Positions 12,460-51,500 of a stretch of DNA of 64,000 nt are shown piece after piece. Origin of the DNA: Crotophaga sulcirostris (lineage: Eukaryota; Chordata; Aves; Cuculiformes; Crotophagidae); contig VYZB01000096.1 of assembly GCA_013397455.1 (NCBI GenBank), forward strand, positions 629,495 through 693,494. The letters are read 5' to 3'. How positions within the stretch are numbered: the first letter of the stretch is position 1; every line of letters starts with the position of its first letter. A program made the translations under genes and the position numbers. The notes below the pieces were generated by a model, which was given only the letters and a program-made list of their open reading frames with translations, searched no databases and had not been told where the DNA came from.

Positions 12460-12570
12460 TTAACAATCTGTACGGAATGATGATGAGCTTTTCTCCAGAT
12501 CTTCTTGCATTTTAAGGAGTATTTTCTCCTGCTCCAAGGCTTCTATGTATTTGGAATAGGACCAGGAAGC
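12460..12570 (-). CDS. RGS22: RGS22 terminal coding exon with stop
   Basis: 111 nt, 36 codons and TAA; phase 0 in. Acceptor GGTTCTTGCAG. It encodes [20 protein letters not shown] and then [15 protein letters not shown], a short coiled-coil-like C-terminus matching the [13 protein letters not shown] motif of mammalian RGS22. The tail after it is shorter than I recall for human RGS22. Confidence 0.93.
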   Translation of the reverse strand, partial: ASWSYSKYIEALEQEKILLKMQEDLEKSSSSFRTDC

Positions 12571-15500
12571 CTGCAAGAACCATTAAAAACCATCAGTCTC
12601 CTGACCATGTCACTGGTACTTCCTTGTCCATTTCAACAGTGAGACAAAAGACTTGCTTATCTTATATCTCTGTTATTGAATAATCACAATTATTAAAAAG
12701 AAATATTGTCATGACAATACTGGAATAATGGGGAAAATAGTATTCCTGCAAATAAGCAATCTCAAAACACCATGAAATGTAATTTAGGCAAGCTTGGCAG
12801 ATATGTTTACATTAATTTATTCTCTATCCCTGGTCTGAGTCTTGTTCTCTGTTTTTTGTCTTCGAAACCTAAATACAGCAGACTTTTCTCCTTCCAAAAT
12901 TTCAGCCTTTTGTCCTATTAAGGACTTGATTTTATCTCCCTGCCACATCCTTCTAGTGTGTCCTTTCTGCAATCATTGAAGCTTTTATTAGCCTCAAAGT
13001 TCGTTCTGCCGCCTGCACCAGAGAATGCTGCTACCAGTAGAGGCAGATCAACTGGAGATGTCATCCTTTCCTCTTCTGAGGAGCAAATGTTGCTCCTTAC
13101 ATTGCAAAAACCACAGCTCAAATGCCATGTAAATTTTAGGTCACTTACCCAAATCAGTATGGGAACTGTACCTTTATTTGGCCTTTTTTACCTTACAGCC
13201 TAAAAGATTTGGGGCCAATTTGTCATTTCCTGACTCAGTAAGAACAACTTTTTGGCATTTTCCTGTAGCAGAAAGGGCTTGGAGCTCTATAAAAGATTAT
13301 TGCACTTTCTGCAATTATCTGTTTCTTGAGGGCTTAGGCATATGATATTGATAGACTGGCTCACCCAACCCACTTTTTTTTTTTAACAGGTATAAGCAAA
13401 GGTTAAAAGGTCTATTCAAGAGATAAGAGGGTGAGGTTAATGATGCAGTTTGCAATGTGGCTTCATATTTAGAGGGTATTTCAGACTGCCTGTTACTATA
13501 CTCTGCTCTGAGCTAGTCTTCCATGGGAAGATCACTATGGAGTGTAAGCAGTGGCCCAAATGTGATTTACTCCTGCATCACATGGCATAGCTGTGATGAT
13601 GTGGTTGCACAGATTCCCCATTATGTTATGGCAATGTGTCAACTCAGCCATGAATGAGCCCTTGATATGCCTGAGGTAGCATGTCTCTTCTTCCCCTTTC
13701 TCCAATAAAATGACAGCTATCCCTTCACTACAGATTTGATGCATCATGAGAGTTTTTCTGCCAGAAGTACTAAAGAGCTGGTTTCTGTCAGATTTTTTGT
13801 TGAAATACCTAGATTTCCTATATGCGTTCTGCTTCAGTTTTTTACATATGAGCAGAACAAGACTCAAGCTTAGACTAAATTCTTTCAGGATATGAATTTC
13901 CAAAGTAATTAAAAGCCTCTTATTCTGGAATTGAACTTGGTTTTCTTTAATTTACCTTTAAATAAAGGCTCATTTTAAATATACACACCTAAATGGTTTA
14001 TTATGTTGTTGGATACAAATACTACTCAGAACCTAAATCTTAAAAGTGAAGTTACTTGTAGAATAATTAAAAGTTATTCAAGGACCGTATGACAATTTTA
14101 TTCAAAATAGAACTCCACTTTCCCATTCTCCCAAAATCTGTTTATGTCTTTTGAATGATGATATGTGTAGCAACATGCTTGGTAGTCACCTGCTTCCCGT
14201 GTCCATCTGAAAATGATGCTGGTCCTCTCTCCACACCAATCTCATCTACTAAGGCACTGCTTGACAGACTGGTGAGTTTTGTTCCCATGTTTTCACTCTG
14301 CCAATAGTAAGAATGCATAATTAGTTGAAAACAATAGTTACTCAGCTAAAATAAAAAGCAAAGCCTGAGGAAGCAAAAATTGTCATTAGNNNNNNNNNNN
14401 NNNNNNNNNNNNNNNNNNNNNNNNNNNNNNNNNNNNNNNNNNNNNNNNNNNNNNNNNNNNNNNNNNNNNNNNNNNNNNNNNNNNNNNNNNNNNNNNNNNN
14501 NNNNNNNNNNNNNNNNNNNNNNNNNNNNNNNNNNNNNNNNNNNNNNNNNNNNNNNNNNNNNNNNNNNNNNNNNNNNNNNNNNNNNNNNNNNNNNNNNNNN
14601 NNNNNNNNNNNNNNNNNNNNNNNNNNNNNNNNNNNNNNNNNNNNNNNNNNNNNNNNNNNNNNNNNNNNNNNNNNNNNNNNNNNNNNNNNNNNNNNNNNNN
14701 NNNNNNNNNNNNNNNNNNNNNNNNNNNNNNNNNNNNNNNNNNNNNNNNNNNNNNNNNNNNNNNNNNNNNNNNNNNNNNNNNNNNNNNNNNNNNNNNNNNN
14801 NNNNNNNNNNNNNNNNNNNNNNNNNNNNNNNNNNNNNNNNNNNNNNNNNNNNNNNNNNNNNNNNNNNNNNNNNNNNNNNNNNNNNNNNNNNNNNNNNNNN
14901 NNNNNNNNNNNNNNNNNNNNNNNNNNNNNNNNNNNNNNNNNNNNNNNNNNNNNNNNNNNNNNNNNNNNNNNNNNNNNNNNNNNNNNNNNNNNNNNNNNNN
15001 NNNNNNNNNNNNNNNNNNNNNNNNNNNNNNNNNNNNNNNNNNNNNNNNNNNNNNNNNNNNNNNNNNNNNNNNNNNNNNNNNNNNNNNNNNNNNNATATGT
15101 AGTAACGTTTTGCAAGGCACAGTTTCATAATTCACCACGTTGGGTGTAATAAAAAATACCAGAAGATATTGCTTTCTTAAGATCTTTTTTATGTCTCTTG
15201 AATGATGATATATGTAGCAACATGTTTGGTCGTCACCTGCTTCCCACGTCCACCCAAAGACGATGCTGGTCCTGTCTTCACACCAGTCTCATCTACTGAA
15301 ACACTGCTTGACAGAGTGGTGAATTTCGTCCCCGTTTTTTTACTCTGCCAATGGTAAGAATGCATAATTATTAGCAAACAATAGTTACTCAGCTAAAATA
15401 AAAAGCAAAGCCTGAGGAAGCAAAAATTGTCATTAGAAATGAGATAGCGTCACACGCAGTAATGTATTGTAGTGCCCAGTTTCATAATTAACCATGTTGG

Positions 15501-18500
15501 GCGTAAATAAAAAATACCAGAAGATATTGCTTTCTTAAGATCTTTTTATGTCTCTTGAATGATGATACGTGTAGCAACATGTTTGGTAGTCACCTGCTTC
15601 CCACGTCCACCCAAAGATGATGCTGGTCCTCTCTTCACACCAGTCTCATCTACTGAAACACTGCTTGACAGACTGGTGAACTTCATCCCCGTTTTTTTAC
15701 TCTGCCAATAGTAAGAATGCGTAATTATTAGTAAACAATAGTTACTGAGAGAAAGTAAAAAGCAAAGCCCAAGGCAACAAAAATTGTCATTAGAAATGAG
15801 ATAGTGTCATACGCAGTAATGTTTTGTAATGCCCAGTTTCATAATTCACCACATTGGGCATAATAAAAAATACCAGAAGATATTGCTTTCTTAAGATCTA
15901 TTTATGTCTCTTGAGTGATGATATGTGTAGCAACATGCTTGGTATTCACTTGCTTCCCATGTCCACCCAAAGATGATGCTGGTCCTGTCTTCACACCAGT
16001 CTCATCTACTGAAACACTGCTTGACAGAGTGGTGAGTTTTGTCCCCATTTCTTCACCCTGCCAATAGTAAGAATGCATAAATAGACGTAAGCAATAGTTA
16101 CTGAGTTAAAGTAAAAAGCAAACTCCAAGGCAAGAAAAATTGTCATTAGAAATGAGATAGCGTCATATGCAGTAATGTTTTGTAATGCCCAGTTTCATAA
16201 TTCATTATGTTGGGCATAATAAAAAATACCAGAAGATACTGCTTTCTTAAGATTTATTTATGTCTCTTGAATGATGATAAGTGTAGCAACATGTTTGGTC
16301 GTCACCTGCTTCCCACGTCCACCCAAAGACGATGCTGGTCCTGTCTTCACACCAGTCTCATCTACTGAAATGCTGCTTGACAGACTGGTGAATTTTGTCC
16401 CCATTTCTTCACCCTGCCAATAGTAAGAATGCATAAATAGACATTAACAATAGTTACTGAGCTAAAGTAAAGAGCAAAGCCCAAGGCAACAAAAATTGTC
16501 ATTAGAAATCAGATAGTTTCATATGCAGTAGTGTTTTGTAATGCCCAGTGTCATAATTCATTATCTTGGGCATAATAACAAATACCAGAAGATACTGCTT
16601 TGTTAAAGAATTTCTTTGTCCTAATTGAAGTTTTCTGATCCCTACACTCCTGTTGACTCTCCTCCTTTCAGGTTCAATATGTATTCCAAAATATTGGTAA
16701 GTGAGAGGGCAGGTCTGCAGCAGAACTTATTTTAAAGTCAGAAGGGCCACTGTGGTTCACCAATTTGGCCGCAGGTATAAATGTAGAACATAGGATTTCT
16801 CACGATTAATTCCAAGTTGGTCCAGTAGCTGAGAATGAACTGCAGTATACACGTTAGGAAAATAGGCAATGTGATTATAAACATTGACACTGAAAGACAA
16901 GGCATTGTAACCCTTGGTAAACTGCTCTGATGATTAACTATTTGTCATTTTCATGTTGTTCCAGTGTTTTACTAGGGCTGCATCTTTGCACATTCTGTCT
17001 GATGATCCCAAAACTCTTTTGAACATTAATCAATGTTCATATTTAACCTGACATCATTAACCCCACAACATTCCCTTTAGGCAAGTAATATAACCCTCCC
17101 ACGTTGCAAATGAGAAATTGTGAAAAAAAGAGAAGTCAAATAGTTTCCCAAAGTCACTCAGAAAGCCCCCCAAAGATAGGAAAAGGATCAGAACATTCTA
17201 CTTCCTTGCTTCCAGGGTGCCTTTTCCATCTTCATATTCCCCACTGTCCTGTGGACCCATCATCTGTAAGGGTGACTTTTGGGTATAGAACTGCCCAGGC
17301 AATGGGCTGTTCATCTTCTCTCCGGAAGGCTTACTAACTTCTTCTTCTTCTTCCTGCTAACTCTCAATTGATTGAGCAGGGATGCCAAAGCATATACAGA
17401 AATAGTGTGTATACCAGTGTGCTACAGCTTATGTCTACTAGCTTTCTCAATGAGAATGGTGAATCAAACAAGGTCTTTAATAATGTTTTCTGATAATAAA
17501 TCAGGCAATGGTATGGAAATGTCATATCCCATGACATTACACCACTTATTAACAAATACACTTATTGCTAAGGAACTTAAGGAGAGATGAGGGAAACATG
17601 GAAAATTACTGCTTATGGTTTTATCTTTCTCTGCTAAATGCATGAAAGAGTAAGTACAGGTTTACAGTGTAAGTTGATTTTGTACACTTGAAAGCAAAAA
17701 ATCCAAAATCCGTTTTGAATGTAAAACATAGTTGTGTATACAACAAATTACAATTACAATTTCAGCTGAGTACTGAAGCAGTCACACTATGCTGAATGTT
17801 TGACCTTACTTCATCATGTAACTACCCATCCCTGCCTTCCAGACACTAAGTTTAAAACAGGTCTCTGCATTGTACAATGCTTGCATGGCATCCCTCGCTG
17901 CCAGCCACTTGTCCCCTGCACTGAGACCATTGTCAGAAAGCCTTCAATAAGATATGCCCCATAAATAACAAATAGGCACACACAAAAATATTGCAATAGT
18001 CAAATAATAAGCAGGTCACACACCACTGTCCACTGAAAGCCTCCTTGTCTGCCCTTTTTTTCCATTATACTACATAAAATTCGAACTCATATCCAGTCAG
18101 TTCAGAAAGTGAGGTAAGCCCAGGTAGATTGGGCACCCCAGGGAGAAATTTGTGAGAAGGGAGAAAAACTAAATTCCTCCCCCAGGACCATGACTGTTCC
18201 ATTTGACATAAATCCAAAATGGCAACTGATTTGAGGTGGGGTGGAATATATATAAGAAAAAAAGCATTGTTTCTAACCCTTGCCAGAGCTTTCATCTCCT
18301 TCAACATGAGCCTGGTGGGGCAGAGGAGCGTCGACATTATTTTAAATGCCAAGAAATCATCACCACCTACAAGCTGCCAAGTGAACCTGCTATTGCTTAT
18401 GTTGCATGAATGTTATCAGTATCCTTCAGGGACACTGAATCATTTGAATAGTTACGTTGTCACTGTGGGGACAGAAATCTCAGGCAGGAGAAAAGGGAAT

Positions 18501-21500
18501 GGCAAATTCTTTAAACAACAGCAGAGAGGGAAAAGAGTTTCAAAAACTTATCTGTTTCACCTTCTTTCAACAGATTTTAAAAGGTAACTGGTTTACTGGT
18601 AATTTTTTTGTGAGAAGAATGGTCTGCAAACTTTTTACTAAGCAGCGTTCGCTGCCTACCACTTTCTAAAATTTCTTATCCTGTTTCCCAGTTTAGAAGA
18701 GTAATTCACCTTTCCCATTTGTTCTCCATAAAAGCTAGGGTTTTGCCCTCCTGGCCAAGATTTGTTCTTTACTTCCTTGATCTTAATCAGAAATCTTATA
18801 GACAGGCAACAAACAGATGGAAAAAATAAGCCTGTGAAAATGCAAAAGCGCATTACTTTGAAATATTGCATTCTTGCACTGTAAGTATTGCCAATGGCCT
18901 TGCCAGACATATCTCTATGGAGGCAACATGCTTTGGAGAAAGGAACATTAATTCTTGGATTGTAGACTTCACTTGATATTGGTCAGTGAGTAACGCTTCA
19001 CTGGTCCTCAGTTATCATGTGTCTGAAAGAGGATAACAATGTGTACATGTTCTTACAGGCATATATACGTCTTTATCTGTCCAGGTACTCATGAGGTTCT
19101 CATCATTTGTAATATCTTACCACATAAGTACACGATATTTAAAATATATAAAGGTCTTTTAATGCTAATTCTGATAGTTTGCAAGTCCAGTAATTGCTCT
19201 GCCCCTAAAAGAATGTTCTCTCCTCAAGCTGGCCAAGAAATTACATTTTATAAAAAATAAACTTTTGCAAAGCCTATAATCAATATGAAAAAAAAATAAT
19301 AAAATTCCAAGAAAAACTACTTTACAAGCAAGCATTCTCCTATAGAGGTCACAGTTCTGTTAATACACTGAAACTGTCAAGAAACTTGTGAACAGTCTGA
19401 CAATTTCACTGGCAACACTAAGAAAAGACAAAGACAGTACAAAGCAATTAACACATAAATATTTTTTTAAATAATGTGCAGACTTTTCAAATGCTCCTTC
19501 AGTATAATAGGTATGAAATATTTTGGTTTGTTTTGCTTTGCTTTCAACAGTGACCTTGGACTTTAAAACAAGACAGTACTTACTGAAAGTGCCAACAGGT
19601 CTGCAGTTACCCACTGTAAATACAGATCATACATAGATTTTTTTTTTTTTAATCTAGCCCTCTTTTTCACTCTTCTCTTGGCACAAAAGATGACTAAAAT
19701 ATGTTTTCCCCTCTGCTTAATGAAAGAAGTATACCTTTGACTCATCTGCTTCAAGTTAAACATACGTATATGCATTGGCAGGATTGAGAACTAATCGCCT
19801 TAGGACCGGATCGTATGTAAAGCTTGAATTCTAACAAAAATATTTCGGTAGCTTTAGATCAGACTAAGAAAAGGATACTTGAATTCATTTATGTTCGCTC
19901 ATGAAGGAATTTTTATGCAGTTCGTCAGCTATCACCTGTAACTTCATGAGCCTTACCTCTACTGTTTTGCCTTTCTTCTTTCGGAACATTTTTCCCTTTT
20001 TCTTCTCCAAAGCAAGTAGAATTTTGTCAGTAGCCAAATCACTTCGAAACTTACAAAATTTTGGCCAAAATTTAAACAGAAGAGCAAAAATAGTCATCTG
20101 TACAGAAAGAAAAGAAAAGAAAGTCAATATTGACCATATTGCGAAAACAGAGTTTACTGTAAAGCAAAATGTAGTTTACCCTGAGAATGAAATAACTATT
20201 TCTTTTTGAATACACAGCCTTGTTCCTCCCACGTACTGTGTCCTGACATTTCAGTCCAACTTTGCTCAGCACATGCTTTTCATCAGTGTGTTTATAACTG
20301 GTGAGAAATCTTCCTAAAACACAGTTAAAAGGCACTTTCTTTTTTTTATATATCCCTAAACAATTGTTTGCATTAATGAAAACATCCATCATTTTTTACA
20401 AGTATTCCTGATAAAATATACACCAGTAGAATTTCTTTTGCAGCAGTGTTCTGCTCAAGTATTTCAAATATTCAGTTCATTAGGGAGAGAGGTTTTTTTC
20501 CCCTCCTTAAGAGAAAGGAAATACTTTTTTTGCCTCTGGAAAGGCTCTTAAACCATATTACAGATCTATGAACAAATCTTGGATAATTTTTAAATGATAT
20601 AATCTCTCACAGGGTCTTTTTTGAACTAGAATAAGAAAAATAATTTTAAAAAAAGCAAACAAAGGGGCTCAGTGAATTCTGTTGCTGCAAATACTAAGGC
20701 TCACATTTTTCAATTTATTTCGATGTTTAATTCTCATTGAGAAACTTGGCTTCAAAGGAGCCAAGCATGCTCAGCATCTCACTGCTTCTGGCTCAACAGA
20801 CTTGTAAGTGACATGCAAGTCACTGTCATGTTCCAGTCACAGCTTTTTGGACAAGTTCTTCTCTTGGGTTTGTGCCACATTTCTAGAATTCACTGAGTTT
20901 TACACAGGCTAAAATGAGACTTTTTATTTCTCTTAGGACCTGTATGAACCCTTTTCACTGACAAACCATTCATCTTCTGTGATCCAAACGCTTTATGGAC
21001 TCACAGTTGATGCTTAGAAGCGTTGGTAGCAATTTTATAGAAAAAAAAGAGGAACTAGCTTTCTTAGGTTTAGAAGGCAAGTAGGGAAGATGGTAACAAA
21101 GAATAAGAAAATAGTAAGTTTGTAGTACAGGTTCACACATTACTGTTCTGTCTGGTTAGTACAAGGATCAGAGAGAATATATTCTACAGCTATTTAATAC
21201 ACTTTCTGTAATAAGGGAAAAGCATTCAGTAAGTTAAGCTGTCTTTGTGCATTTTTTTCATAAACTACAAAACCTAGAAACTTTCTAACTACAAATTAAT
21301 TCTCTGACATTATCCAGGTGGTAAAGAACAAGCAATTAAAAACATAGACGGAATTCTTTTCTACTGCTAAAATTCCTAGCACAACCCTGGATAACACCTT
21401 TCCAGAATCAGCTAGCTCTCAGAGGTCGTCCAGTTTGTTGAGCAGTAAATACCTGAAACCTCTGTCATCTCCACCATACAATCTTCACTGATGCATGATT

Positions 21501-24500: not shown

Positions 24501-27500
24501 TGAAGAAGCATAAAGAAATACAGGGATAATACATTCAAGTCATTTAAAATAGCTACCCTTAAAAAGTAAGGATTTTCTCTGACGAAAAAACAGTTCAAAC
24601 AGTGGAAGAGTTTTTAATATGAACAGGAAAATGCATAGAGATATTCTTGTTAAATTTCTTCTAATATGCAGTAATGGATGCTTTGCTTACAAATTGAACG
24701 ATATTCCCCTTGCTTTATTTTACCACTGTACCTTATACTTCTGCACCTCTTGCCAAAAGAGTACTCCATTCTCCAGTAGGTCTCCTTTCAGTGACACAAA
24801 GCGTTGAAACTGATTTGCTGTCACTGGATTCAACAGCGCTTTGCGGAAAGCAATTATTTCACTAGATGAAGAAACCCACTTATTATCCACATGCTGTCGA
24901 AAGAAGAAATAAATGCACCAAATAAACTTTGTTTCAAAAGCAATAACAAAGGCATTAGTTAGCGTAAACTGTCTGATTCTTATCTTTGCACTAACCCTAA
25001 CTTTCAGTAGTTTATGACTTTATGACATGGATACAATAGAATGTGGCAAGGTTTCACTTCATTTTTTCCTTCTTTTTTTCTTTCTTTCAGTTTGGTTTGG
25101 GTAACATTTTTTGGAAGACGTGATGGGAGAGGAAATGACTTGACAATGATTTAGACCATATGACTACATACTGTAAAGTATGGAAACAGCTATTGTTATT
25201 GATTATGGCAACAGGCTACTTTTTTAGAGAACAGTTTGAGTTTTGTGCAAACAAACAACAAAGAGAAGAGAACAGACAAACCACATAGCTTCCAAGTTGT
25301 AAAATGTTTCTGACAAGGATCTCACTAACAAAATGAGCTTTGAAATGTGTTGCCATGATCACCAACAGAAGCGGGGAGTTTGCTCTCTATGGAATAAAGC
25401 TACTAATAGTAAAATATAATTTAAAGTCATTGAGACATTTTGGAAATCCTCATGCTGCAAAGCACAGAGCAGTAGGCAGTCAGGAAAGGGTGGAGAAAGA
25501 AAGATGGCTTATGTAGGGACAGTTTGTTCAAAATGAAGTTCAGGCTGGTGTGCCTTCCTGAACAAATAGTTTTTGTGCTGTCACTGAGAAGTAAGCCAAA
25601 CATCCCCCCATGTGTTATCAGATGGATGAATGAAAACTATCTTCTAACAGTGGTATAAAACTCTTGAAGTCTTGGAGGGGTGGAGTGTTGTTCAACGGTC
25701 AGCATGGGACAGGAAGATTTTTAGTTGCTGCAGGCAGTCCTGGAAATCTAACCTGATTCTGAGCTGAAAGTCTGTCTCTTAAAAAACAGGGGTTATGCTT
25801 AGTGTTCTGTCCCAGAGCCTGCCAAGGATGAGAGCATACCCTGGGGGGATGGTGGTCATCCAAAGTGTCCTTTGGGTAAAACAAAAGCAGCTCAACTTAG
25901 ACAGTAAGGTGGTATCTTCTCATCCCTCCTCCAGTTCTCAAAAAATGTACTATCCTCTGTGACCAGGATTTAGGCAACTTTTGGGAACAAAACGCTGCTC
26001 CCACCCCTATACTAAAATATGAACACTGTTTATTTTACGGATCAACAACCTAAAGCAGAACATGGAAAAATAACCATCTTCCTGACAAACAGACAAAGGG
26101 AAAACTCAGTTAACAGAACCCACATGCACTTTGGATCCCTTTCGAGCTAATGGTTTGCATGGATAATTGGTGACCGGGTCTCCAGTTTGATTTCGACAGA
26201 CAATAAAAGTTCAACTGAATAAATGTACACAACTTGTATGTTGGCAATCACAAAGAGTTCACTGCTCTTCAAGAGGAAAAACTGGCAAACATCTGATGAA
26301 ATGTATTATTACAAAGGTTTAAGATGTTTAAAACTGATATTATCTCAGTGCCGCAAGATTAAAATACAATTCTAAATGAAACAGATACTGTGAGATATGA
26401 TTAAACCTGCCCACTCCACTGCATACTTCACATTCTCTTTTGTGTCTGCACGTAATCCACTCGCAATAATAAATAAACTACCAGATGCTGGAATGAACAG
26501 CTTGTCCCAATAAGTCCAATGCATGCAAAATAAGATAAATGTGAATTAAAGGTGCAGTACCAGTTTGAGGAGGGTTAAGAGTGCCCCAAAGCCCAGGAAT
26601 AGAGACATGCTTTTTTCAAGTATGACCTCTCCAGCCAGGAAGGGAGAGAAATTTACCGTGAACATCCAGCAGGGAGCTAAGTTCACCAGGAATGTGAGTA
26701 ATCAGTGCACTCTAGCCAATACAATAATGCTGGCTTTTCACAGCATTACATTTGGGCCTCACACTGTCAGCAGGGAAATTGTGAAGGATGTGCAAGGTCC
26801 AAACAGGAAAGACAGTGAAACTGCACACCAAAGAGACATAGTAAACTTCACTTGCCTTCCACATCCTAGTTGACTTCTCCTGGTTTTGACGTGGAAGATC
26901 TTCATTTATGTCCTTTATCTACAGTTGAACAAAAGACTATAATTGTACTTTATAGTTCTTTGTGTTTAACATTCAGCCCTCTAATGACTGATACCAGAGT
27001 GACAGATTAATCGATATATTTGGATCTTGATATCTGAAACTTGTGGTGGGCCCACACTGAACCCCATCTCTTGTTCAGCTATAAATGAGCATATGCTCAT
27101 TAAGACTATGGAATTAGAGAAGACAAGAGGCAATAGCAGTTAAACATTGCCTTTCTACTGTTTTACCTTACCCCTAATGTTCTGAAGGACCACTTGTGTT
27201 GGGAACAGATTTGGGTCTATAATTTTTTTTTATGAAATGTTTTTAGTTCTTTTGGACAGATGTATCAGAAATAGGCTTGATTCTGCAGATTCTTTGTAGC
27301 AAAAATACACCTCAAATCAAGGGCAGATTTTCTGAATAAGGACTACATAGCATGCCCACAGTGTTTGGTCACTGTGAAATATGAAGCCAAGTGGAGAATG
27401 TCATATGGTTTCATTTCTTCTAAAATACATTCTTCAAAGGACCTTTTCATCCCCTGAATTTGCAGTAAGAAAGAGAAAAGAGCAGTCAAACATGAATGGA

Positions 27501-30500
27501 GCTAGGAAAAGACTAAAAGCTCATTAGAAATATGTATTTCCTCTAAACTGTTTATTAAATACAGCATTTTCCAAACTGCATGGGCTACTCTCCCTGCCAG
27601 CACAGTGCAGCAGGTGCAAGAAGAAGTATCAGCCAGCTTCCAAACCTGGAAGCACCTTAGCCTTATTGCATGGTCTTGTGCCAGGGCTTGTAGAGGAGGT
27701 AGATTTCAGCTAAAAAAGGGCAGGAGGTTAGGAAACTTTGCTTTAACATAATCATTATTAAAATTACAATATGCCTTATTAGAACATACAGTTTTCAGAT
27801 TGCTTAATGCTATGGGTCAATGAAAAAGATCCAGTTCATATGCGCTTCTGACAAAACTTCTAATGAACTTGATGTTAAAAAGACCATTGAAACCAAATTT
27901 AATCAATCAGTGCAGCCAGCCTATGTGTCTGCTTGGTGGAACTGTCAGGTTTCCTTCTGCTACGAAATTCACATTTCAGAGCTTTTGTGGAAGTGCAGAA
28001 AAACCAAATCTTTTTGCATCTGTCACCAGCAGGATGATCTCCTTACACAGATTCCAACCAGAGTCACTCTCATAAAAGGCACATGTTAGCTCTGCCCGTT
28101 CCCCAGTCTTTCTAATGAGCCAGCAGGAGTGAAAGGCTCCTCATTTCCAGTTTTCTGGCAACTTTCTGAAGTAACCAATTGGAAATAAGGCCTGTAGCAG
28201 CTAATCTCCCCACTCAGCAGAATTTCACAAGACCTGGAGTCATTTCTACAGACACTGCAGCTCCAGATGGGAGAATACAGTGTAAAATAGAGAGAGAGGG
28301 AGAGAGAGAGAGAATAGAGTGGGAAGCCCATTTGTTTGCTTGCATTCTTGTCCCCTTGGGCAAATCCTTTATACAAAGCAGCATTTCTTCTATGTGCAAG
28401 TGTACGGCTAGTGTGAAATGGCACATGCTGCACTACAGCAAAGATTGGTTTACTCTCCTCGTAGCCTGGCTGGCAGCAGAGCTAACACCATCTCCTTCCG
28501 ATTCAGGATGTAACAATAATACTGTCAGCCAGACTAAGCCTTCAGAGGAGCTGCCTTCACAATTATCAAGCTAAATGCTTCAACCTGTACAAGCTACAGC
28601 ATCTCTTTTGATGTAAACTGAATGTGAGTTGTGGGCTGCTTTTCCTCTGAACCATTTTATCCCAATGGTAAATTACAAGCCAAACAAAAAACAATGCCTG
28701 GATGTGTTATTATTGTTGTTAAAAAAATTACCTTTGCTTGTCCCTCTGCCCCTTGGTGTTCATCTGCCAGGAACAATGGCAGCCATTGTTTTTCTAATCT
28801 CTTCTGGACACATTGCTGAATTTGTAGCAGAACCGCTGCCGAAAGTCGATCATGAAAGACTTGTCTCCATCCTCCACCTGAACGTGTTAGCTAAGCAATC
28901 CAAATACAATAACACATGACATAAACTTCTGTGTGTACCAAAAGTCCTTTATCTCTCTACATCCTTAATTTAGCAAAGCATGAGCTTAACTGTAAGCAAA
29001 GCATTTAATGCATGCTTACCCAAGGCTCACATGTACTTTTCATAAAAGGGAACAGATTACATTTGTCCCTACCTATAATAGAATACAGACTCTGGCAAAT
29101 AATACCCCATATTGGCCGAGTAAATTTTCTAAGTATCAAGATATGTCGGAGTACCACAGCTCAGACTTGCTGTCTGTGGCTTTACTGGCATACTAAAATA
29201 GAAAACTGGAACAAGTCACTGCCTGAAAGCTGTTTTTACACTTTTTCTGAGCTGTGTGGTGCGTTCTCTGGCTGTGGCCTCAGATCAGGGTTTAAGGGAG
29301 ATGGTCTATAAGGATGGGGGAGGAAGAGCCTTAACAGGAAGGAAGGGACCCCCATAACCAGACCAGAACCAGCTTTCTGGCCAAAAATATAGGTAAGATT
29401 TGAGGAGATAGCTTGGGAAAACTGGAGCAAAACCGCTTGTGGACTTTTATTTCAGTCACAATCAGTGTGATTGTTCTTTATGAAGAGTTTTCTAACTGGT
29501 ACCTGTTCTTGTTGTTCTTTGGTAGCTGGGCTGTTTGGTCCAAAGAAGTATTTTTCATTTAAGTACTTATTTTTAATGTCCTTATATTTTTCCTCTCTTT
29601 TTTCTTTATCCTTGTGGTGCATCTTTCTGAACTGTTCAATATCTAGCCAGCACATGAGATCCATGCTACAAACAAATTTAAACAGAATGTTATTTCAATA
29701 TTGAGTTAATTTCATCAGCATTCTAGTGAGTTATTAGCTTAACCACAAGCCACCAAAGTGTTCAAGTCCTAAATACCAGGTCAAATTGGACTGAAATTTT
29801 ATGTCATTTTTTCTTTGCTAGTACCATCTGGTGAGACCATGGCACTTGCTGAACAGTCAGATCAAACACATATCTTAGGGATCTGATTTAGGGTCCCTTC
29901 TGGGGCACCCTGAAAGGCGTAACCTCCTCAATGTGCTGCTGCTAAATCCAGCAGGGACTGTGAACTAGAGCCATAGTGCAGAGCTCACAAAGAGAACAAA
30001 AAAATGAAACAGATGAGAATTTGAAGCAGTACTGAGGCTGTGAGCCACCAAGAGATGAATCAACACCCCCTGTTCTGCCTCCTCATCGTATCGCCTGAGA
30101 AAGGAGCAGGGATGACAGCTGGGAACATCAGCCCCAAAAGCCACCGCGTTCTTATGTCGTGTGAAGTGCTAGAGCTTATGTTGGTCTGCAGTCAAGCAGA
30201 CAAAACCAATTTATGGTAACTTTTGCTTCTAGTTTTTTTTGTGGGCTGCCTTTTCATAAATTACTGATTCTACTACATATTTCACTATTCATAATAAGTA
30301 ACAAATAACCTCCACATGCAATTCTTGATTTATATATATTGTTCATAATCATTTGAGTGTATACTATCAATTTAAGTATGTTTTAATGGAATATATATCG
30401 GTTTTGTTCTTTAAACCAGAGGATAGATTAAGTGACATACCTACAGTTTCAGTTTAATTTGTATGACTGTTTTCTGATAGCATCTTATTAGCTGAAGTTT

Positions 30501-45500: not shown

Positions 45501-48500
45501 CTTCCCATTCTTGATCCCCCTAAGACAACACTGCCAGCAGCACTTTTCCCCTGGACAAATAAAATATAGTTATACAGCAAGGAATAAAAGGCTTTCATTA
45601 TTTTCAAATGTCAGTACATTGCAATGGAAGGCCATGCAGTGTGTTCAATTAGTGTCTTCATCCCAAGAAACCAGGCTCCATTTTCTACTACATATGCAAT
45701 TGATCATAGCTCTCCATACCATTTTCTCACTAAATATTCACATCCAGTGGAATAAGTCTGATGACTGAAGGGATGCAGATTAGCAAAATGACCATAGCAT
45801 TCCTTAGGGGGTTCCTCAATACTTGAAACAGGAAAATTAACTCTTTAACTCCGAGTCCTCGAAATTCCAATGATATTAAACTGTACCACTTAGCTGTCAA
45901 AAGTTGTATCAGCTGAGGCTACTGTGTTTTGAACCAACAGAAGTTAACCAGTGGTTATTTGGTCAAACCTCAAAACGTATTACCCCTCATGGAACAAAAG
46001 ATATATCTCCTGGGATTACACCTCTTCCATCACCATCAAAATCACGAGCATTTTAGGGGAGAGGAAATCCATGCCCTTTACTGTGGCTGCCTCCTAGAGC
46101 ATTTGAGGAAGAATACATCCATTTTGACAGTGCTCACAGAGAAACCAGAGGAGAATACAAATTAGTAAATTAGCTTCTGATGATCGTAAAAGAGAAACTT
46201 GGCTGATATGCCACCTCTAATGGTAAAAGTGGGAGCAGATGAGTGCGGTGGCTGACAACCAGCTTCTTTTGAAATAGTAACAGGGATGGAGAAGGGCAGG
46301 AGGAAGCCAGACTTCTGAAGCAGGGCAGGAGGAAGCCAGACTTCTGAAGCAGAGCAGGAAGATCCCGCTCCCCAGTATGAAGTTAAACTATGGATTCATG
46401 CATTCCCCTTTGCATTATATTTGTGACGGCAAATACTGGGGTCCTGACTGTAGGTTCCAGTCTAGCCCTGTAAGTGTAAATGGATAGTACTTTCATCCCT
46501 CTGCCAGAGGGAAACTGCAGGTGTATAGTGAAGGTGCATAGTTCATAGCTCAACTAATAGTTCATGGTATGAACATTTCCTTAATATAACTTTCTAACTG
46601 CAAATGCTCCTTGACTGCAAAGATTATCCTTTTCTTCTGCCAAAATTAACAAAGTAATAAAATTATTGTAGTAAAGTAATAAACAATGTGTGATTTTGAT
46701 GTGAAAAGCAAAACAGTTGTGCTCCAGTGATCAGGAAACTCCGTGCATATGTGAACAGGCTCAGATTTCGTAACATGGGTTTTTTTTGAAGTTGCAAGGC
46801 CATGTGAAAAGTTTCAGATATATTTTAAATTGACAAATCTTGACATCTCATGTGTTTGATTTGTCAGCATTTTAACTGTTACTGAGAAAATTCTATTCTG
46901 TGCAGCCTGTCCCTCCTGAGGTTTGCTGGATTGAAGGCCTGCTTAGCAGGCAATAATTCAACAAAGAAAAGAAAGAAGTACAGAAGCAATGAAGAGGAAT
47001 TGTACAAATTAAGCATTTTCCTCTTGTGAATTTTACTATTTTAATTACTTTCTAGGGCAGATTCAGTTTTTACTGAAAGTATGGTATGCTTCCCTAGCCA
47101 ACGATTCCACCAGAGCATTTATCCAGTGAGTTTTCCATAATAATCTACTGAATACATGGTCACCATGGAGAAGATCAACATTTTCTAGTGAAAATAAACC
47201 TCTCTATGTACCATGATTTCCTATCAAATAGGTGACAGATATCACACAGAAAATGCTGACATTCTAATTATACCTCTGCATACAGCACTGACATTCACAT
47301 AATCAAACCCATTTCTCCCCAGCATTGACTACTTTGCCTTTAATACTACAGAATAAAGTGTTTTAATCCAGGATTCAGGACAACTAAAACTTTCACGCAC
47401 TACTTACCTGGAGCAACTCAGCATAGGTGTACTTTCTATGAACCTGGTATTTTGAGCCTTCAGTGTCATCCAAAGCTGAGGAATGAATCATGTCTCTGCC
47501 CACTGACACTGGCCTGGGTCCACAAACAAACAAGTTTTCAATACCTATTTAAGAAAAAACTAGGACTGCTTACAAAATAAACAGCTAAGAAGGGGCATGA
47601 GAGAGTTGGAATGACATAGTGAACAGTACAGGGGAAAGTACATGGTGGTCAAATTTATAATAAATGTAAAAAATGTAGAGGAATAATTTTTCATGTGGCC
47701 CTGTGGAAATGACTGACACAGCTTACCTCTGAGGGCGAGTACTCAAGACAGTTTAAAAGAATAGAAATGTACATAAAGAATATTAGTGATTATTCAAGAG
47801 GTGGTAAAACACCTGTATTTGGAGAAATATACTCTTTTGTGTTGTGGTTCGAACAACTGAATCATACAATTATAGCATCACTTGGTTGGAAAAGACCTTT
47901 GAGATCATCAAGTCCAATCATACCTGTCCACTACTAAACCATACCCCTGAGCACTTCATCTATCCGTCTTCTAAATACTTCCAGGGATGGTGACTCAACC
48001 ACCCTCAGCCACCTGGGCAGCCTGTTCCATCAGTGCCTGAGAACCCTTTTGGTGAAGAAACTCTTCCTGATATCTAATCTGAACCTCCCCTGGTGCAACT
48101 TGCATCTTATTTTCTCTCATCCCATCACTTATTACCTGGGAGAAGAGACCAGCACCCACCTCCCTACAATCTTCTTTCAGGTAGTTGTAGACAGTGATGA
48201 GGTCTCCCCTCAGCCTCCTCTTCTCTAAGCTTAACAGCCCCACTTCCCTCAGCCGCTCCTCATAAGAATTGTTTTCCAGCCCCTTCACCAGCCTCGTTGC
48301 CCTTCTCTGGACACACTCCAGCCCCTCAATGTCCTTCTTGCAGTGAGGGGCCCAAAACTCAACACAGTACTCGAGATGTGGCCTCACTCACGCTGAGTAC
48401 AGGGGCACAATCACTTCCCTGCTTCTGCTGGCCACGCTGTTTCTGATACAGACCAAGACGCCATTGGCCTTCTTGGCCACCTGGGCACACTGCTGGCTCA

Positions 48501-51500
48501 TGTTCAGCTGGCTGTCAATCAATACCCCAAGTCATTCTCTGCCAGGCAGCTTTCCAGCTGCTCTTCTCCAAGCCTGTAACTCCGCACAGGGTTGTTGTGT
48601 TCCAAGTGCAGGACCCGGCCTTGGTGAGCTTCAGCCCATTGGTCTCAGCCCATTGATCCAGCCTGCTCAGATCCCTCTTGTAGAGCCTCCCTTCCTTCAA
48701 GCAGATCAACACTTCCTCCTATCTTAGTGTCAGCTGCAAACTTACTAAGGGCACACTCAATCCCTTCATCCAGTCGTTGATAAAGATATTGAACAGAACC
48801 GGACGCAGTGCTGAGCCCTGGGGAACACCAATTTTGACCAGCCTCCAACTGGATTTAACTCCATTTATGATGACTCTTTTGGCCCAGCCATCCAGCCAGT
48901 TTTTTACCCAGCAAAAGATGTGCCTGTCCAGGCCAATGGCAGCCAGTTTCTCAAGCAGAATACTGTGAGAAACAGTGTCAAAGGCTTTACTAAAGAGTTC
49001 AGGTGCACTATATCCACAGCCTTTCCCTCATCCATTAAGTGGTTATCACCTTGTCACAGAAGGAGATCAGGTTGGTCTGGCAGGACCTGCCTTTCATAAA
49101 CCCATGTTGACTGGGCCTGATCTCCTGATTGTCCTGCATGGGCTGTGTGATAGCACTCAAGATGATCTGCTCCATGACCTTCTCTGGCACTGAGGTCAGA
49201 CTGACAGGCCTGTAGTTCCTTGGATCCTCCCTCCAACCCTTCTTGTAAATGGGCAAAAATTTTGCCAACCTCCAGTCAAGTGGAACTTCTCTAGACAGCT
49301 AGGACTGCTGTTAGAAGTTGGAAAGGGGTCTGGTGAGCACTCTACCAGCTAACTGAGAAACTAATCAGCCAGGGAGGAATTCTCCATGCATGTAATCAGT
49401 ACCATAACTGTGCTTCACTAGGCAGATATTATTATTATTATTTTCTATATAATAGAAAAGCATTCATGAAAACAGTAGGATCTAAAAACCTTTCATAAAT
49501 ATTTGAGATATATTCACGTGCAAGGGACTTTCATACTTACCACTTTCTACAGCTAGAAATGTCATCTTTCTCGGGGCTCTGACTTGATGGCAGGGTAGGT
49601 GATAATCTTAATGATCTCTTCAAAGAAAAATTTGGTGTAGATAGTTTTAATAAAGTCGTTGGTGAGCTTGTTCTACTTTTCTAAAAGGCATAACAAAAAC
49701 TAGGCCATTCCAATTATTTTTCTACCTTTGTGTTTGCTTAACATGTTCCCATCAACTGCTCAAATATATTCAAGAGCTTTCAGAGCTATTTTGCCTTGTC
49801 AAGCACAATATGTAAAACTTCAAATAGCAAAAATCTTCTCTGAATACTTCACAAGATTTTTCAGCACAGCTTAATAACCACTATAGCTTAACAATTACAT
49901 TTTTAACAAGTAGAAATATGTTACATGTACTTTGTACAGAATTACAGAGGATGGCAGGTGAAGAGCATGTGAACACGTTTTGTGAATCTTTACTCAGATG
50001 ACCTTGACTGGCTTACTATCAACCAGGACTGTAAGGCAGATACAGCCACCCATACTAAGAAAGAAAGAGGATATTCAGGCACACCATCACTAACTTATTT
50101 TGAACAAAAACATGGTATGACATTTTGGAGATGCAAGTTGCCTTCAGAGTGTCCTCAGAAATTCACCCAGATTTGCTGCTTTTTCTAAGCTCTTGCAAGC
50201 ACAGCAGAGCTGGAAGATTCAGAAGTCCAGATTTATTACAACAGAACAGAAAAAAGCAGCAAGGAACAGACCATCAACTAATTCTGTGAGGTTCATGGGT
50301 GTCAGGTCATAGTTTTTTCAAGTACTGAACAACAGGGGCTGAAAAACCTGCAGTTAGGATCCTGTCTACTTGACCTACAGCTAGTCCCAGGGCATTAGTA
50401 CACCTCGTGAAGCCAGAACTGGTCTCTGTAAGAGGCAGCAGCTTCTGGCTCCCATTCCTGCTGTGATCAGCAGGAATCTGGCTCCTGAACCCAGCTTCTT
50501 CTGAACAGGAATCTGTCCCACTGTTTTTCCTCTGTTATCTCCATGAATTAGCTTTTTGAAAAATATAATTGTGGTCTAAAACTATCCAATTCAAAGTAAC
50601 AGAGGTATGTGTGAACAGATCTATGGTATAGCCCATCCAATTCTCGTTACTGGAACCACGGTCTCGATTCACAATCTCTAAGTACATTCTGTCCTGAGGC
50701 TTAACACTGTGTTGTTGAAAACCTGCAGCTTTCATTGCAGTTTCCTCTCAAATTCAGACTTTCAAGGAAGAACAGAGTCAAAACTGAACTGGCGACCTGC
50801 AAGCTACATGCTGTGAAAAGGTCAGATCTGTGTTGTGTGGCTCATGGCCCTCAGTAGAGAGCAAAGTCGTGTAGCTGATTAAAGGGCTATGGTGATAGAA
50901 AATGAGCAGAACTCTGACCTTTTTACAAATATGAGGGGTAGATTAACAGTAACTGCAGTGAAGTTGTAAGAATTACTCTGGTTTAACATAAGTCTGATCG
51001 AAGGGCAAAATCTGTGCTGCTAAATCTTCGGTCTTGCAGTTCTGAGAATCTTGAGACAAAATATCTATCAAAAAGACTTATTAAGTAGCCAGGATGTAAC
51101 TAAGAAGATAATTCGACTCAATTTATTGCAACCTGTTGCATTAAGTACAGTAAATTTTTTCTACATTTTTATACATAACCATTTGCAACAGATAATCTTG
51201 CTAAATCTTCACTTCCCAACAACCAAGGACCATATCCTTGTCCCATTGAATTTGAGGAATTTTATCATTATTTTTGATGGGACAAGGCTTTGTTTTTCAA
51301 TGTTTTGATCCTACCTACCTGAGGAAGGGAAGGTGGTATTTTAGGTGTGCAAGACTTAGATGTCAATGGTAGCAATGATACCATTTGTGGAAAAGGATCA
51401 ATGTCCACCCTTGGCCTCTCTTGGCACGTGTGCCAGAGCTTCAGTTTTGCACTGGCACTTTCTATGGCTGATGAATGAGTGACACAAAATCTGGGACCCC

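Follow-up and report, generated by a model that had tools for sequence, protein, structure and literature searches.

The question raised by this locus is whether a coding exon that has been multiplied in tandem inside a single gene also lengthens the protein that the gene encodes. The window, by which we mean the whole stretch of 64,000 nucleotides analyzed here, comes from a relative of the cuckoos, the groove-billed ani Crotophaga sulcirostris (GenBank assembly GCA_013397455.1, contig VYZB01000096.1, positions 629,495 to 693,494) and carries RGS22, a gene of sperm and cilia, on its minus strand, in which one exon of 108 base pairs (bp) recurs together with its flanking intron in units of about 356 bp. 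We consider it moderately probable that this symmetric exon was amplified in the ani lineage and that most or all of its copies are spliced in, which would give the protein a longer disordered tether.

The array occupies 14138..16605 on the minus strand, internal gap included, running from 16605 to about 14138, with its outline taken from repeat searches and its edges set by inspection. Five exon copies are readable: c1 at 16306..16413, c2 at 15950..16057, c3 at 15594..15701, c4 at 15237..15344, and c5, the 3'-most, at 14190..14297. They were placed by their flanking motifs, open frames, and splice scores and, for c5, by a match to the deposited ani protein (P0001) and a comparison with a consensus. 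All five lie on the minus strand, and each is 108 bp long, is preceded by TTGGCAG, remains open for 36 codons, and is followed by GTGA, just as a sequence-only reading of the window had described them. Tandem Repeats Finder reports a period of 356 with 4.2 copies and 91% matches (score 2357) over 15101-16606, and a separate repeat search joins the c5 unit to the array at 77%; together with the spacing and the junction phases, this confirms a phase 0-0 exon in tandem units. A gap of 705 undefined bases (N) interrupts the array at 14390..15094. From c4 to c5 the spacing is 1047 bp, or 2.94 units, so two hidden copies would fit in the gap if its size is right; five flanking stretches, 48.8 kb in all, contain two more N runs, of 211 and 40 bases, and gap sizes therefore look like scaffolding estimates. 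We infer an array of five to seven copies. When one unit was searched against the 1.058-Gb assembly, with only the best candidates scored, all six reported matches fell at the array.

The gene is RGS22, as the sequence-only reading had it. Besides c5, 20 exons of P0001 can be placed in order along the minus strand, between 61985 and 12469, and the joined window exons match a solved RGS22 chain, 9fqr_Ha (1257 residues), with an expect value (E) of 2.9e-211. P0001 maps in exact stretches once the residues VE are added at the 19957 junction, with tblastn mismatches at exon ends. The array lies between the exon at 19957..20097, which ends ...KKKGKTVE at the phase-0 donor GAGgtaagg at 19957, and the tail exon at 12469..12570, which starts at 12570 with a phase-0 acceptor; both were placed on the minus strand by P0001 mapping and splice scoring, and every array junction that could be placed is in phase 0.

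In turtle, crocodile, goat, and human RGS22, a single unrepeated segment stands at the position of the array, and the mammalian counterpart that had been proposed thus holds at the protein level, with one segment between the same flanks in human and goat. Among 188 fetched proteins, 91 match the exon (BLASTP E of 0.01 or better, P0001 included), in every case at one place, and none of these 91 has a second copy, though protein data would miss unannotated arrays. Three protein searches found no other protein with repeated copies of the array exon among the matches listed, which were the best 120 of 693 hits for one search, each search having scored only the roughly 7,990 candidates that shared most words. 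Six proteins of the source 'lgn' alone had been read as possible array transcripts and were discarded, as none contains the array.

A single codon bears on the timing. Lysine at codon 35 is present in all five ani copies and in none of 70 in-register exons from other proteins, a set kept from 119 36-mers for an identity to c5 of at least 14/36 (the other 49 did not align in register or resembled c5 too little); Cuculus and Phaenicophaeus have tryptophan before the final glutamine. Since the change is in all ani copies and in none of those 70 exons, the duplications would most simply postdate the split of the ani from Cuculus and Phaenicophaeus, unless gene conversion spread it. The comparison with other birds, made at the protein level, would thereby place the expansion in the ani lineage, where it appears to have arisen after the split from the other cuckoos sampled, namely four proteins (Cuculus twice, Phaenicophaeus, and Centropus), with none from another crotophagid.

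A short-read assembler could have mishandled the repeat and reported a wrong copy number, and the N gap inside the array, like the nearby N runs of differing lengths, would fit such an error. We regard it as very improbable indeed: the exons differ by 5-11% among c1-c4 and by 16-19% between c5 and the others, at dispersed sites, so the copies are not one sequence assembled repeatedly, and mishandling of this kind would more probably conceal copies than invent them. The upstream introns of the copies differ by 4-18%, and intron divergence among c1-c4 is 10.8%. A rough array age of tens of millions of years, obtained with a neutral rate for birds, was set aside because conversion and crossing over blur this divergence. 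The upstream introns of c4 and c5 differ at only 4 of 92 positions, whereas their exons differ at 20 of 108, a mosaic that points to recombination between units. The phase 0-0 exon would have been duplicated in the ani lineage along with some 248 bp of intron, and the copies may then have been multiplied and partly homogenized through unequal crossing over or gene conversion.

Whether these copies reach the protein is best approached through their splice sites, which we scored with consensus matrices against the 20 placed RGS22 junctions of the window, the two sites of c5 included. From c1 to c5, the donors score 3.8, 0.9, 4.7, 3.8, and 4.7 (median of the 20 junctions, 3.85) and the acceptors 4.1, 4.1, 2.4, 2.4, and 2.8 (median, 4.15). 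Three of the four extra copies (c1, c3, and c4) are close to c5 at both sites, and the c2 donor (CAAgtgaat) is the weakest of the five. As c5 is the copy that aligns best to the exon of other species, sites near those of c5 make inclusion the default reading, and because the copies have sites like those of the parental exon in strength and short introns between them, most or all of them are most likely spliced in. A number of observations weigh against this. The c2 donor scores below 16 of the 20 junctions, all five acceptors lie at or below the median, and P0001 contains c5 as its only copy; the exon finds no counterpart in 97 of the 188 fetched proteins, which are partial, have diverged, or lack it. 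The intact frames and sites are themselves not evidence of selection, since in neutral simulations on a star tree, each copy changing by 5.4%, 48% of 20,000 runs left four copies free of stops and 21% also kept every AG and GT. The ratio of nonsynonymous to synonymous change between copies, which had been proposed as a check and was computed for all 10 pairs, ranges from 0.43 to 1.28, and variable sites among c1-c4 number 15/108 in the exon and 46/247 in the intron (Fisher P 0.36). Constraint on the copies is therefore not detectable, and the selection tests carry no signal either way.

The same observations could mean that c1-c4 are intronic duplicates carried as passengers, mostly skipped or included at a low level, with c5 as the working exon. 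To the weak c2 donor, the undetectable constraint, and the deposited model with c5 alone, one may add that conserved residues are best kept in c5, which matches the consensus of the 70 other exons at 18 of 20 conserved sites, while c1-c4 match at 12-13. We did not rely on c5 being the sole copy under constraint, because the consensus set had been filtered for similarity to c5 and the asymmetry shrinks against the two cuckoo outgroups: relative to these, by inspection, c1-c4 changed at about five sites (15, 16, 29, 30, and 31), whereas in c5 some three sites did (3, 20, and 23), which leaves c5 not clearly slower than the others. The deposited model lacks the residues VE at the 19957 donor and hence seems to have been built by homology rather than from RNA. 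With c1, c3, and c4 holding splice sites of about c5 strength, with upstream introns of c1-c4 only 4-16% different from that of c5, and with nothing seen that would make the spliceosome ignore the copies, we consider the passenger account rather unlikely, albeit deserving of attention. The copies might instead be picked singly, as mutually exclusive exons, or in variable number, yielding isoforms whose lengths differ in steps of 36 residues. A symmetric exon keeps the frame at any copy number, and the counterpart of the array exon is what distinguishes two isoforms predicted in a goose, X3 (P0057) and X4 (P0050), so that even a single exon may be skippable, which also tells against full inclusion in the ani. 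Introns of about 248 bp should, on general grounds, permit sequential splicing, and we think such alternative use improbable.

If most or all copies are included, as we favor, the consequence would fall on a linker. In the AlphaFold2 model of Buceros RGS22 (P0121), of which only local features were used (mean predicted local distance difference test score, pLDDT, 63.3; predicted template modeling score 0.32), residues 575-615, the counterpart of the array exon included, are unstructured, with block pLDDT means of 24-49, and residues 614-641 are modeled as a helix. The array exon is thus predicted to encode a disordered linker before a C-terminal helix. In P0001, the distance from the motif LFKFW to the motif SYSKY is 78 residues; five copies would raise it to about 224, and seven to about 296. 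The median in 108 related proteins is 84, and the ani linker, if the copies are spliced, would be 2.7 to 3.5 times as long. Rich in serine, threonine, glycine, and lysine, it would lie between the last RGS-like domain and the C-terminal helix and may serve as a longer tether for the tail of a radial-spoke head protein. PMC11779644 places RGS22 in radial spokes (RS) 1 and 2, describes its contact with TRiC at RS1, and reports that in bovine sperm RGS22 and EFCAB5 form the RS2-RS3 bridge; RGS22 was also immunoprecipitated with EFCAB5 in HEK293T cells (PMC12423330). With its copies spliced, the ani would be a natural experiment on length in a motility structure.

The ani does not appear to be alone in altering this linker. 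It could be measured in 108 of 125 listed proteins, those having both anchors (17 do not), and ranges from 51 to 198 residues. At the threshold used, 10 of the 108, from several lineages and with differing units, have an internal tandem repeat in it (P0064, P0067, P0103, P0114, P0120, P0099, P0045, P0063, P0101, and P0112); some of these proteins are automatic models, and the species are non-independent and were counted without phylogenetic correction. The units are 45 residues in Pezoporus (two isoforms), 8 in Neopelma, Pithys, Empidonax, and Serilophus, 7 in Merops, and 5 in Centropus, with a Gly-Tyr run in Gallus and a Lys/Glu run in Penelope. When four control regions were screened in these proteins, wherever their end motifs were found, repeats turned up in 2/74 (short and serine-rich), 0/73, 0/106, and 0/88. 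The standard deviation of length is 19.7 for the linker, against 10.2 (median 87) and 22.2 (median 236) for two further regions of variable length and only 0.2 and 0.5 for two regions that are domains, which makes the linker relatively the most variable, though not the sole variable region. What is new here is this recurrent gain of different tandem repeats in the bird RGS22 linker, which looks like a place where tandem sequence has been gained repeatedly, in the ani by way of whole exons. Set against its controls, it gives a case in which recurrent evolution of length in a sperm protein can be tested. One may go further and suppose, with the chances well against it, that the linker, evolving fast, acts as a length regulator for the sperm radial spoke of birds, lengthened repeatedly by differing routes (amplified whole exons in the ani, a duplicated 45-residue segment in a parrot, and repeats of 8 residues in suboscines and of 5 in a coucal) and perhaps tuning the RS2-RS3 bridge or the contacts between spoke and TRiC, hence flagellar beating under sperm competition. 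The interest of the finding rises if both inclusion and recurrent selection on length are true.

Several other features of the gene lie outside the array. The donor that P0001 uses at 28693 scores -9.5, and Cuculus P0004 has an extra stretch matching 26918-26856 on the minus strand; for these two reasons, the deposited ani model is probably wrong near 28693 and 26856-26918. At 19936-19956, minus strand, the residues VRLMKLQ (followed by gtgata) continue in frame past the 19957 donor and resemble the extra VRLTKFQ of many bird RGS22 models, and two donors 21 bp apart, one of them at 19957, may compete. At 12469-12573, minus strand, the ani tail exon reaches a stop soon after SSSSFRT (SFRTDC*), and Cuculus RGS22 runs about 40 residues further; the ani has either a donor, TCCgtacag, with a last exon that was not found, or a truncated tail. 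The broken reading frames at 47995-49298, minus strand, resemble the reverse transcriptase of a CR1-type long interspersed nuclear element.

In the open-licence literature, where papers on bird or sperm RGS22 were judged by title and the start of the abstract, we found no account of exon amplification in RGS22; as a kind, the amplification of a symmetric exon in one lineage is already known. In Pezoporus flaviventris RGS22 (P0064 and P0067), a 45-residue segment is near-exactly duplicated in the same linker as in the ani; its unit, known from predicted isoforms only, has no evident similarity by eye to the 36-residue ani exon. Giant sarcomere proteins make inclusive use of duplicated exons. 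Obscurin, nebulin, and others, like ani RGS22, have tandemly duplicated exons in one gene, as set out in an analysis of human and fly genes (PMC9013439), but their proteins are giant, whereas bird RGS22 has about 1.2-1.3 thousand residues. The mutually exclusive exon cluster of Dscam (PMC1397879) is likewise a tandem array of exon copies, its type being defined by a single choice per transcript; the ani array is known from genomic DNA. The closest system found is teleost piccolo b, in which one exon with frame-0 ends was amplified 8 to 16 times, depending on the teleost, unequal crossovers being proposed (PMC3484663). As in ani RGS22, its copies are closely spaced and the other vertebrates examined have the ordinary structure (PMC3484663), but each is a large exon, 702-1350 bp long in zebrafish, that codes for part of a folded zinc finger, whereas the ani exon has 36 codons and is predicted to be disordered, and the zebrafish structure is backed by complementary DNA or RNA sequencing, where the ani array is read from genomic DNA. 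In its symmetric phase, its tandem paralogous copies, and the single exon of its outgroup proteins, ani RGS22 has the genomic features of lineage-specific tandem exon amplification.

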